A stretch of 32,359 nt of DNA from a virus. The notes under the pieces were generated by a model. The model was not told the origin of the DNA. It searched no databases and worked only from the letters and a program-made list of their open reading frames with translations. This document shows, one piece after another, positions 17,751 to 24,161 of the stretch. The stretch spans positions 1 through 32,359 of the IMG/VR virus record IMGVR_UViG_3300042691_004972; one strand, 5' to 3'. Every line of letters begins with the position of its first letter. Position 1 is the first letter of the stretch. The position numbers and the translations under genes are program-made.

Positions 17751-17870
17751 TTGTATCTCCTAAGTTGGCTCCCCTTGAGCCATAACTAAACCCTATACCT
17801 GTTTTTTAGTTTTTTTGGGAGATTTTTCTGTTTTTTTGCCTTTTTCGGCGTGTCGTTATAGAACTGTTAT
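17751..17870 (-). promoter_or_regulatory. A-rich leader upstream of the small-gene run
   Basis: 120 nt without a gene between the RusA remnant and the membrane protein. On the minus strand it is A-rich with several runs of seven A and has -10-like words (TATAAC near 17857, TATAGG near 17798) and a GGCTC/GAGCC 5-bp hairpin near 17765-17780. A promoter for the small genes is plausible. There is no convincing -35, so this is only a candidate. Confidence 0.3.
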
Positions 17871-19074: not shown

Positions 19075-20301
19075 TTATCCCTCGACAACTCTGGCATGGT
19101 GACCCTCAAACTTTAGCCACGCCTTGTTTGTGGTGCCGTGTCGGTTCTTTGCGACATTCAAGATCATCTGGGAGCGTTCCCACTCCATGTCGCCCTCTAC
19201 CTGTTCTCGGTGCAGCAAGATAACCACATCGGCATCCTGCTCAATGCCACCTGAATCTCTGAGGTCTGCCATGTCTGGCTCTGAGTTCTTGCGTTGCTCT
19301 GGACCTCGGTTAAGCTGGGCTAGGGCAATGACCGGCACTTCCAAATCTCTGGCAAGGTTCTTTAGCCCGATGGAGATGTCGGTAATCATCTCGTATCTCT
19401 TGCGACCCTTTTCCGTGTCCTGAATCAAGCCAAGGTAGTCAACGACAATCGCCTTTAGGTTGCCGTCTGACTTAACGCTGTTAGCTAGTGCCCTAATCTG
19501 CTGAATCGTCTGCCCTGACTTGTCGTGAATAGCCAGCTCGTGTTTTGTCTGCCTAATTGTTTCGGCTATCTTTTGCCACTCGTGATCTCTAATGGTTCCC
19601 TTCTCAAGGTTGCCGAGATAAACAGAAGCTTCCATTGCAATGATGCGGTTATAGAGTTCGGTCTTGCCCATCTCAAGGCTGTGGAACGACACAGGCCCAG
19701 ACTTAGACAAGTGCCAAGCTAGCTGCAACCCAACAATGGTCTTACCAACACCAGGTCTAGCTCCAACGATGTAAAGCGCACCAGGTCGCAATCCGCCGAT
19801 TATGTTGTTGAGCTGGTCCCAAGGTGTCAGCGGATAATTGCGTGGCTTGTCTAGCTCATCAAGGTAAGGGATAAGTTCGTCATCAACATAGCTTGGCTTG
19901 ACTGCAATGTTGCGCTCAATGATTCCGTCAATGCTTTTCTTTGCCTGTTCCATTACCTCGGCAAGGTCAGAGTGTTTAGCTGACTCGCTGATAACGGCAG
20001 CGGTAGCACTTAGTCGCCGTCTGGTGCTTTCCTCGACAACCTTGCTGGCGTAGAAGTCAACAGATGTTGCGGTTGGGGTAGCCGTAATGCAGTCATGCAA
20101 GTAGCTGGCAAGCTTAGGCAACCTAGCCCCGACTGTAATGACATCTATCGGGTTGCGGTGGTGCTTCATCTCAAGCATCGTTTTGTAGATGATGTGGTGG
20201 CTTGAATCTAGGAAGTCATCCGGTACTAGGGTCAGGTCATCGAGTGCCTTGCCGTTAGTCAGCAGGATGGAGCCGATTACCGACTGCTCAAAGTCATTCA
20301 T
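19075..20301 (-). CDS. dnaB: Replicative DNA helicase, DnaB family
   Basis: 408 residues, slightly shorter than cellular DnaB (about 450-470). A short N-terminal helical domain (FEQSVIGSILLTNGKAL; HRNPIDVITVG) leads to the RecA-like motor with Walker A GARPGVGKT at 180-188, the H/D-box Walker B region AIVVDYLGLIQDTEK near 280, and IALAQLNRGPEQR near 325, then DLRDSGGIEQDADVVILLHR. It unwinds DNA at the replication fork. The start overlaps the initiator-like gene by 8 nt, as expected for an initiator-helicase pair. No primase or polymerase is visible in the genome, so these should come from the host. Confidence 0.92.
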   Translation of the reverse strand: MNDFEQSVIGSILLTNGKALDDLTLVPDDFLDSSHHIIYKTMLEMKHHRNPIDVITVGARLPKLASYLHDCITATPTATSVDFYASKVVEESTRRRLSATAAVISESAKHSDLAEVMEQAKKSIDGIIERNIAVKPSYVDDELIPYLDELDKPRNYPLTPWDQLNNIIGGLRPGALYIVGARPGVGKTIVGLQLAWHLSKSGPVSFHSLEMGKTELYNRIIAMEASVYLGNLEKGTIRDHEWQKIAETIRQTKHELAIHDKSGQTIQQIRALANSVKSDGNLKAIVVDYLGLIQDTEKGRKRYEMITDISIGLKNLARDLEVPVIALAQLNRGPEQRKNSEPDMADLRDSGGIEQDADVVILLHREQVEGDMEWERSQMILNVAKNRHGTTNKAWLKFEGHHARVVEG

Positions 20302-20950
20302 GCCATTTGCCTATCTTTAGCTTTGGAAGTGTTTTGTTTTGTTCTTCTGGTTTGATGCCTTGGTAGTCCATTGCGTTAATTAGCCAGTTGCGATAGCTGG
20401 CGTTCCAGTCTTTTCTGCTCTCGGCTTTTGAGGTGTAGTAGTTGATGAACTTAGCAAGCTCTTTGGCATAATTCAAGCCAGGGTACTTAGTTGGATACTC
20501 ATCAATAATCTTTTGAGCTGGTTGCCAATCATCTGTAATCTTGCTTGCTTTATTCTCTTGTTTATTCTTAGTTCTTTGGTGTTCTTTAGTAATAGTGTTC
20601 TTTGTGTCCTGTTTTCCGTCAGCGGTTTTTACCGTTGCGGGGTTTTGGAAGGGGTCAGCAGTAGTCCAAATGAAGTCGGCAAAGGTTCCGTCATCATTGT
20701 GTTCTTGCTTTTCTGATCTAGTTAGGTAGCCATAGAGTTCAAGCTCTTTGACTGCCGATTTGATTGTGTCCACTCCGGTCTTGTTGAACCTTGCCAGACT
20801 GCTAACGCTCATGTTCCAGCCAGGTCTGTGGGACATCAGTTGCGTTAGTAGCCCGATGGCTTTTAGGCTCAATCGAGAATCCCTTACCCAGTCGTTTGGT
20901 ATCTGGGTAAAGTGGTCATCAAAATTGTGGTGGCCTCGAATCAGTGGCAT
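20294..20950 (-). CDS. Replication initiator-like helix-turn-helix protein
   Basis: 218 residues. Residues 10-90 form a winged-helix domain as in phage replication organisers: FTQIPNDWVRDSRLSLKAIG, LLTQLMSHRPGWNMSVSSLA and TIKSAVKELELYGYLTRSE. A Lys/Asn-rich, low-complexity linker (about 115-145) separates it from a C-terminal domain with LAKFINYYTSKAESRKDWNA, similar to DnaD-like helicase-loading regions. It probably binds the origin and delivers the helicase encoded next. The start overlaps the preceding TAA. Confidence 0.75.
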   Translation of the reverse strand: MPLIRGHHNFDDHFTQIPNDWVRDSRLSLKAIGLLTQLMSHRPGWNMSVSSLARFNKTGVDTIKSAVKELELYGYLTRSEKQEHNDDGTFADFIWTTADPFQNPATVKTADGKQDTKNTITKEHQRTKNKQENKASKITDDWQPAQKIIDEYPTKYPGLNYAKELAKFINYYTSKAESRKDWNASYRNWLINAMDYQGIKPEEQNKTLPKLKIGKWHE

Positions 20951-21144
20951 TAGGCTGCTGCCCTCTCAGCCATCAGCATCATCACAGTTGGGCTGATGAC
21001 TCTATTGTCGTAGCCCTCTTTGACCAGCATTACCCACTGACCGGCATCAAGGCCCATCGCCTTGTAGTCCATCTCAGCCATGAAGATGTTTCCGCCGTAC
21101 ATTTCCAGTACCTCGGCGAGATTTTTATTGTCCCAGTTAAACAC
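20950..21144 (-). CDS. Small protein at head of replication operon
   Basis: 64 residues with GTG start at 21144 and AAAAGGA nine bases upstream. Sequence begins MFNWDNKNLAEVLEMYGGNI, then MAEMDYKAMGLDAGQWVMLV and a Met/Ala-rich helix at the end. The appearance suggests a compact helical DNA-binding or adaptor protein. Not recognised. It follows the structured non-coding region 21145-21371, whose transcript would be its leader. Confidence 0.6.
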   Translation of the reverse strand: MFNWDNKNLAEVLEMYGGNIFMAEMDYKAMGLDAGQWVMLVKEGYDNRVISPTVMMLMAERAAA

Positions 21145-21371
21145 AAAGTGCCATCCTTTTCATTGAGGTTGGCACTAGAATTAGTTAGATGCCAACAGTC
21201 GGTTTGTTGGTGTCATGCCCTCTAGCGGTTTAGGCCTCTAGGGGGCACTTTTATTTAGTTATGGTTTTACCTTAGCACCTGTTTGGTACAAGGGGCCAAA
21301 CCCCAGCGGTTTGATCTAATCCTTTTGGGATTTACAGGGACCGCTCTGGGGTGTCCGATTTGACCTTAGCA
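21145..21371 (-). other. Structured intergenic region: candidate leader RNA, ncRNA or origin
   Basis: The longest gene-free stretch (227 nt). It contains, in plus coordinates: a 7-bp repeat GTTGGCA 21168-21174 with TGCCAAC 21190-21196; CCAACA 21192-21197 with TGTTGG 21205-21210, which competes with it; GCCCTCTAG 21217-21225 with CTAGGGGGC 21238-21246; GTTTGG 21281-21286 with CCAAAC 21296-21301; an 11-bp stem with a 2-nt bulge (21300-21310 with 21340-21352) enclosing AATCC/GGATT (21318-21322 with 21328-21332). ACCTTAGCA occurs twice (21269-21277, 21363-21371). It sits upstream of the replication genes, so it may be a folded leader, a small RNA or an origin. Confidence 0.6.
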
Positions 21372-23894: not shown

Positions 23895-24161
23895 ATGACA
23901 AGACAACTAGAGAGAAAATACATTGAACTCCAACACGCCATTTCTGAGAATGGGGGTGTCGAGTGCAGTCAGCTACCTCATGTGTTCTTCCCTGAGGATG
24001 AGCCAGATGTCTACCTGCGTAAGAAACTGATAAAGGTAGCAAAGGAAGTCTGCAACGACTGCCCTGTCAGGCTGAGGTGCTTTGACTATGCCTTGTCGGC
24101 AGGGATGGTTGGTATCTGGGGTGGCACTACCGCTGAGGAAAGAGCCAAGCTGAAAAACTAA
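23895..24161 (+). CDS. whiB: WhiB-family iron-sulfur regulator
   Basis: 88 residues, the only gene on the plus strand. Four Cys that bind a [4Fe-4S] cluster are C24, C53, C56 and C62 in the family pattern C-x(n)-C-x2-C-x5-C (VCNDCPVRLRCFDYAL). The turn motif GIWGG is at 73-77, followed by a short basic end (EERAKLKN) that corresponds to the DNA-contact tail. WhiB proteins occur only in actinobacteria and their phages and act with the primary sigma factor. Phage members can block host whiB2 and cell division. Expression before or apart from the rest of the genome is suggested by its own orientation and leaderless start. Confidence 0.93.
   Translation: MTRQLERKYIELQHAISENGGVECSQLPHVFFPEDEPDVYLRKKLIKVAKEVCNDCPVRLRCFDYALSAGMVGIWGGTTAEERAKLKN

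Follow-up and report, generated by a model that had tools for sequence, protein, structure and literature searches.

A predicted antisense-RNA-controlled leader upstream of a phage replication operon

Introduction

Antisense control of the leaders of initiator genes is a textbook feature of plasmids. In the pT181 RNAI/repC and pIP501 RNAIII systems, a pre-emptor pairs with the 5′ arm of a hairpin in front of the start, which is released by antisense binding (PMC5703833; PMC4981023), and in pSK41 the binding of RNAI, a counter-transcribed RNA of ~83 nt, induces a hairpin that hides the rep ribosome-binding site (PMC5703833). Antisense RNAs are also known in phages, namely OOP, c4, sar and aQ (PMC12197685). 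Lambda OOP targets cII and has no effect on the stability of the O-P mRNA; for replication, it is the activity of pO and not the oop RNA that matters (PMC3985674). The c4 RNA of P1/P7 blocks a ribosome-binding site and relies on loop recognition (PMC12197685), and the prophages of cluster A mycobacteriophages have RNA-based origins (PMC7157519).

Here we analyzed a 32.4-kb virus record (IMG/VR record IMGVR_UViG_3300042691_004972, 32,359 nucleotides, taken whole and referred to below as the window) that carries siphovirus-like genes, nearly all of them on the minus strand. In the part of the literature that was covered, we found no description of a phage replication operon under a pre-emptor leader combined with an antisense RNA; plasmids provide the known examples of the principle, and a phage replication operon would be a new setting for it.

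Results

An HNH gene and an operon flank the region at 21145-21371; the operon comprises a 64-aa ORF and the genes for an initiator-like protein and a DnaB-like helicase (Table 1). The original prediction had described it as a single, strongly folded non-coding region of 227 nt, and the folding was confirmed: the plus strand reached -93.9 kcal/mol (shuffles -66.3, sd 4.6, z -6.0, 0/200) and the minus strand -76.0 kcal/mol (z -4.7, 0/200 shuffles), every named hairpin was present, and the competing pair at 21168-21196 and 21192-21210 proved to be real and conserved. However, the list had missed a hairpin at 21148-21176 that covers the ribosome-binding site in front of GTG 21144, and this hairpin is the one that matters for the switch. 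The region is also two things rather than one, a conserved core (21145-21277) and an optional insert of ~94 nt (21278-21371), and the last of the predicted hairpins (21300-21352), although present, belongs to the insert and lies outside the conserved device.

A helicase search in IMG/VR kept 80 relatives, and nearly all of those having the region conserved the core but not 21278-21371. Scanning for the element by pattern returned 116 and 14 contig stretches, from which 100 distinct elements were taken; since the patterns constrain the stem, only the helicase-selected set served to judge how far the stem and the -10 are conserved. The core recurs in more than 100 IMG/VR contigs, with the HNH gene upstream in 106/106 and the helicase downstream in all 90 contexts that were long enough, while the 64-aa ORF was found in 92 of 105 contexts and is shortened to a short leader ORF in some relatives (L062 and L075, for example). 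Two apparent carriers, L092 (a record with an integrase) and L095, were rejected as chance matches to a short palindrome, their flanks having neither the -10 nor the terminator. The element pattern had no match in 84,980 bacterial and archaeal genomes, the helicase search of the same genomes returned one 31% match only, and a DNA search of cultured phages returned none; the closest helicase relatives in culture come from Arthrobacter and Microbacterium phages (~39% identity), whose helicase genes have no comparable long leader beside them.

Several further features of the record were noted. The gene for a WhiB-like regulator, the only other plus-strand gene noticed, points to an actinobacterial host. 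The initiator gene (20294-20950) is exchanged between relatives (24-95% identity) and the adjacent helicase is steady at 93-95% identity; judged by these values, the initiator gene is a recombination hotspot beside the control element. On the minus strand, a non-coding, A-tract-rich stretch at 17790-17860 (GCCGAAAAAGGCAAAAAAACAGAAAAATCTCCCAAAAAAACTAAAAAAC) is a candidate for an origin or a regulatory site away from this region.

Table 1. Coordinates of the genes and predicted RNA features at the locus
Feature	Position	Strand	Remarks
DnaB-like replicative helicase	19075..20301	-	phage DnaB-like
Replication initiator-like HTH_36/DnaT-like protein	20294..20950	-	matches phage HTH_36/DnaT-like families
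First operon ORF	20950..21144	-	64 aa, GTG start; stop overlaps next start (TAATG)
Replication mRNA leader	21145..21262	-	~118 nt; predicted start ~7 nt after the extended -10; followed by GTG at 21144
Leader segment 4 with Shine-Dalgarno (AAAAGGATGGCAC)	21148..21160	-	pairs with 3; SD versions GGAAGG, AGGAGG, GAAAGG
Leader segment 3 (AGTGCCAAC)	21168..21176	-	pairs with 2 or 4
Predicted -10 of antisense RNA promoter	21176..21181	+	TAGAAT; TAnnnT in relatives
Leader segment 2, pre-emptor (TGTTGGCATC)	21188..21197	-	pairs with 1 or 3; complementary to antisense RNA 5′ arm
Hairpin B	21188..21214	+	stem GATGCCAACA/TGTTGGTGTC, core invariant; loop 21198-21204 hypervariable
Predicted antisense RNA	21188..21255	+	~65 nt; hairpin B, then intrinsic terminator
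Leader segment 1 (CCAACA)	21205..21210	-	pairs with segment 2
Intrinsic terminator of plus-strand RNA	21216..21256	+	hairpin C plus T tract
Predicted extended -10 (TGCTAAGGT) of replication mRNA promoter	21269..21277	-	TGCTAnnGT in 99/100 elements, seven versions
Optional structured insert	21278..21371	-	second TGCTAAGGT copy at 21363-21371, its far (upstream) end
WhiB-like transcription factor gene	23895-24161	+	single; divergent from recombination/replication genes

The suggestion of a small regulatory RNA was supported, on the plus strand, and the check on covariation and conservation in relatives gave strong results for both. Folded together with several adjacent bases, as 21182-21256, the predicted RNA reached -35.7 kcal/mol (z -5.8). 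In a consensus structure of 24 distinct aligned RNAs, 95.8% of cells were paired and 8 pairs had compensatory, two-sided changes; these changes numbered 40 against 10.4 expected, the covariation score exceeded all shuffles (0/500), and a control in which the partner was slid by 1-3 columns dropped the pairing to 41-48%. In the predicted -10, T1, A2 and T6 were invariant in 57/57 helicase-selected relatives, with positions 3-5 variable, and the motif lies 4-7 nt before GATGCC in the 100 distinct elements. Neither the predicted antisense RNA promoter nor the predicted mRNA promoter had a recognisable -35, and a simple sigma-70 scan found neither. The stem words of hairpin B, GATGCCAACA and TGTTGG, were kept in 52/52 distinct helicase-selected elements, among which there were 25 loops, whereas the terminator stem was rewritten by paired changes among 27 distinct hairpins (281 Watson-Crick, 60 G-U and 11 A-C pairs on the plus strand), each of which is followed by a T-rich stretch on that strand. 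Hairpin B had 98.8% of cells paired on the plus strand versus 84.6% on the gene strand, with 34 versus 0 G-U pairs in the plus reading, and the terminator 93.4% versus 83.7%. As gene-strand RNA, these helices lose 10-14 points of pairing because G-U becomes A-C, and the functional strand of the hairpins is therefore the plus strand. The element has a conserved -10 and terminator with strand-specific covariation, and may in this respect resemble the plasmid rep leaders, in which a counter-transcribed RNA has its own promoter and terminator.

Two contigs were without a complete terminator: L001 skips straight from the TGCTAAGGT copy to inside the hairpin but otherwise hardly differs from the window, and in L139 the terminator hairpin is entirely gone. 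These losses are either natural deletions or assembly collapse.

The loop of hairpin B (6-7 nt) occurred in 34 versions in the 100 elements, mostly of the form GYYTRNT, and its inner positions had a heterozygosity of 0.50-0.65, compared to 0.33 for third codon positions in the adjacent ORF of these phages. In the pairs L022/L023 and L004/L196, 4-5 of the 7 loop bases differ, while 40 nt upstream and 60 nt downstream are identical. Such a pattern would be expected either if recognition depends on the loop and selection favours differences there, or if recombination at the invariant arms exchanges the loop. U-turn motifs (YUNR) were weakly enriched in the plus-strand loops (25 loops, p 0.04; 34 loops, p 0.14) and were not used, and a pseudoknot between this loop and the spacer, read by eye, fitted few relatives only and was dropped.

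On the gene strand, the repeated word pointed out in the original prediction, ACCTTAGCA, is a genuine repeat; it reads TGCTAAGGT there and is the predicted extended -10 of the mRNA, its second copy lying at the upstream end of the insert. The leader that follows offers the alternative helices 1:2, 2:3 and 3:4, the last of which hides the ribosome-binding site. In the nascent leader up to segment 3, P(2:3) averaged 0.96 versus 0.01 for P(1:2), with 2:3 ahead in 99/100, and the median local energies were -6.2 (1:2), -14.6 (2:3) and -12.4 kcal/mol (3:4). Helix 2:3 was kept through A-to-G changes, which give G-U on the gene strand, in 15/100 elements, and the spacer inside it covaried: the native mean was -12.9 versus -11.6 (sd 0.27) with halves swapped between relatives (0/500), the swap costing 1.4 kcal/mol on average, again with 0/500 within equal lengths. 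Six pairs of the 3:4 outer stem were each paired in at least 93/100 elements, with a compensatory GC to AT change in 3 elements, and when segments 1-2 were blocked, which is what binding of the antisense RNA would do, P(3:4) rose above 0.9 in 99/99 leaders (~1.0).

The barrier from 2:3 to 3:4 was about 9 kcal/mol, and the ON state (2:3) is therefore metastable. Full-length leaders at equilibrium without antisense RNA had P(3:4) of 0.85 and P(2:3) of 0.13 (1.0 and 0.0 in this window) and mostly favoured 1:2 plus 3:4, the OFF state, although 17/99 kept a sizeable share of 2:3. With OFF prevailing at equilibrium although no antisense RNA is present, the leader can be ON only transiently or with help. 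A view without a switch, taken from early equilibrium folding, was overturned by the nascent-chain, covariation and barrier tests, although equilibrium still favours OFF. By computation, segment 2 pairs with the 5′ arm of the start-site hairpin in a mutually exclusive manner, as a pre-emptor does, and that hairpin hides the Shine-Dalgarno sequence in segment 4. The cis-regulatory switch that had been suggested is thereby supported, for the minus-strand leader, and is compatible with the small RNA. By the evidence of sequence comparison, the plus-strand hairpins and terminator, the -10 elements, the alternative pairings and the hypervariability of the loop are features of the element.

The insert was found in about 7 distinct relatives (L229, L037, L021, L155/L012, L085/L010 and, at 81%, L013/L014/L123/L192), and the L013/L014 copies of its inner hairpin differ by apparently paired changes. 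It occupies the same place as tmRNA-like sequences of other relatives, in which an RNA-like sequence of ~80 nt lies directly upstream of the leader promoter (L158:10663-10744, L184:3148-3229 and L022:1-94; also seen by eye in L051, L101, L121 and L230). This sequence matches both tmRNA ends with almost no mRNA-like domain, and its Rfam tmRNA score was 52 bits in L158, above gathering, and 33 bits in L184; a lone tRNA-like domain of the tmRNA type is odd in a phage. In L071, a different tRNA-like sequence (GTCGGTAGCTCAGC...CTAGGTGCAACTCCTAGCCGACTT) without an ARAGORN call lies at the same place, ~70 nt upstream of TGCTATGGT. In the window itself, nothing was returned by a tRNA/tmRNA search.

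Discussion

We consider the best explanation of these data, with a probability of roughly two in three, to be an antisense-RNA-controlled leader of the phage replication operon. An RNA of ~65 nt (21188-21255, plus strand) would be transcribed towards the upstream gene, stop at its own terminator and be fully complementary to the replication mRNA leader (minus strand, about 21262 to 21145). In the growing leader, the pre-emptor segment 2 would pair first with segment 3, and segment 4 with the ribosome-binding site would stay open; the antisense RNA on leader hairpin B (segments 1 and 2), or relaxation of the leader, would then let 3:4 form and hide the ribosome-binding site, leaving the first ORF untranslated and, by coupling, the initiator and the helicase too. 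More genome copies would give more antisense RNA, and the synthesis of replication proteins would be throttled. The antisense RNA may be needed for turning the leader off or may only speed this step, and the hypervariable 7-nt loop would set which leader it recognises first. From the features described above we infer the transcription of both RNAs, their binding, repression, copy-number dependence, the biological role and the meaning of the loop variation.

By analogy, the logic of the predicted leader matches that of the pT181/pSK41 pre-emptor leaders (PMC5703833). With the pSK41 RNAI/rep leader of Staphylococcus RepA_N plasmids it would share an RNA against the leader upstream of the start and a hairpin that hides the ribosome-binding site, but pSK41 is a plasmid with an unrelated Rep protein, no sequence similarity is claimed, and the predicted phage RNA is shorter, has its -10 inside the 2:3 helix and stands in a phage setting. 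The pre-emptor and the hairpin in front of the start are also shared with pT181 and pIP501, where the hairpin mainly terminates transcription, whereas the phage hairpin has only 3-4 T after it and contains the ribosome-binding site. The operon does not encode a plasmid Rep initiator of the pT181/pSK41 families but a phage HTH_36/DnaT-like initiator and a phage DnaB-like helicase.

Among phage systems, P1/P7 c4 acts on an antirepressor message for immunity, in contrast to the replication operon considered here, in a phage with no recognised lysogeny genes. Cluster A mycobacteriophages likewise have, in actinobacteriophages, a non-coding RNA tied to replication, but their prophages are extrachromosomal, with parABS and without Rep, whereas this phage has a helicase alongside its initiator, and ParA was looked for without success. 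Lambda OOP is also a short antisense RNA with a promoter facing the replication-gene transcript, but no pre-emptor leader is known for it, and the target here is not cII next to O but the leader between the HNH gene and the 64-aa ORF, with no cII-like annotation beside it.

Lambda nevertheless supplies the alternative that survives best, which we regard as improbable: the plus-strand RNA may be made but act like oop/pO, with its transcription, directed at the replication mRNA, disturbing replication or being coupled to it and RNA pairing playing a secondary part. Convergent promoters at replication genes, as in lambda, would agree with this, but the invariant stem of hairpin B, the hypervariable loop and the conserved 2:3/3:4 alternative over the ribosome-binding site would be left unexplained. 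It is slightly less probable again that the leader alone is the device, as an attenuator or a ligand- or temperature-sensing element on the minus strand, with the plus-strand terminator only blocking stray antisense transcription. The covarying 2:3 versus 3:4 alternative on the gene strand would suit such a device; the conserved plus-strand -10 directly before hairpin B and the better pairing of hairpin B and the terminator as plus-strand RNA would not, nor would a hypervariable loop and the lack of a ligand-pocket-like conserved core. No Rfam aptamer family matched at gathering score (best permissive E 0.53, unrelated), and this, with the better plus-strand pairing of the best-conserved hairpins, also counts against the riboswitch-like reading in the original prediction.

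That the palindromes are protein-binding DNA sites, whether an operator, initiator sites or a replication origin, is very unlikely. Half-sites TTGGCA/TGCCAA do recur and the region adjoins the HTH initiator gene, but the distance between the half-sites differs by several bases between relatives, a conserved G-U in hairpin B (99/100) breaks DNA symmetry, and the terminator stem changes freely in sequence. The origin that had been proposed at this site finds no support in the GC skew, which does not change at 21 kb, and no iterons were seen at the locus; as a whole, the earlier interpretation is partly supported. We give just as little credence to the idea that the plus-strand RNA acts in trans on mRNAs of the host or of other phages, with the variable loop as its seed. 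The small size, terminator and exposed loop would suit such a role, and phage small RNAs with host targets exist (PMC12197685), but a perfect target lies on the opposite strand at a structured leader, and loops that change between identical flanks sit uneasily with fixed host targets.

Searches of this record and of nine element-bearing relatives turned up no tyrosine integrase, and this record and eleven such relatives likewise gave no hit for a serine recombinase, ParA or an HTH_3 repressor; some of the records are fragments. Because none of these genes was found, a plasmid-like copy-number or immunity role is not obvious for this phage, and the control may have its use in the timing of lytic growth or in co-infection, and not in maintaining a prophage. 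A tentative extension of the antisense-controlled leader, which we hold to be possible but doubtful, is phage incompatibility, in which co-entering related phages would throttle each other's replication only if their antisense loops match, and selection for escape would drive loop exchange in an otherwise frozen device. If the antisense reading is true, some phages would use RNA to meter their replication and perhaps also that of relatives in the same cell, through a plasmid-style pre-emptor switch that has a hypervariable recognition loop and is conserved, with no signs of lysogeny, in more than 100 phage contigs. The loop-swap pairs are natural near-isogenic variants, which makes RNA metering of replication directly testable.
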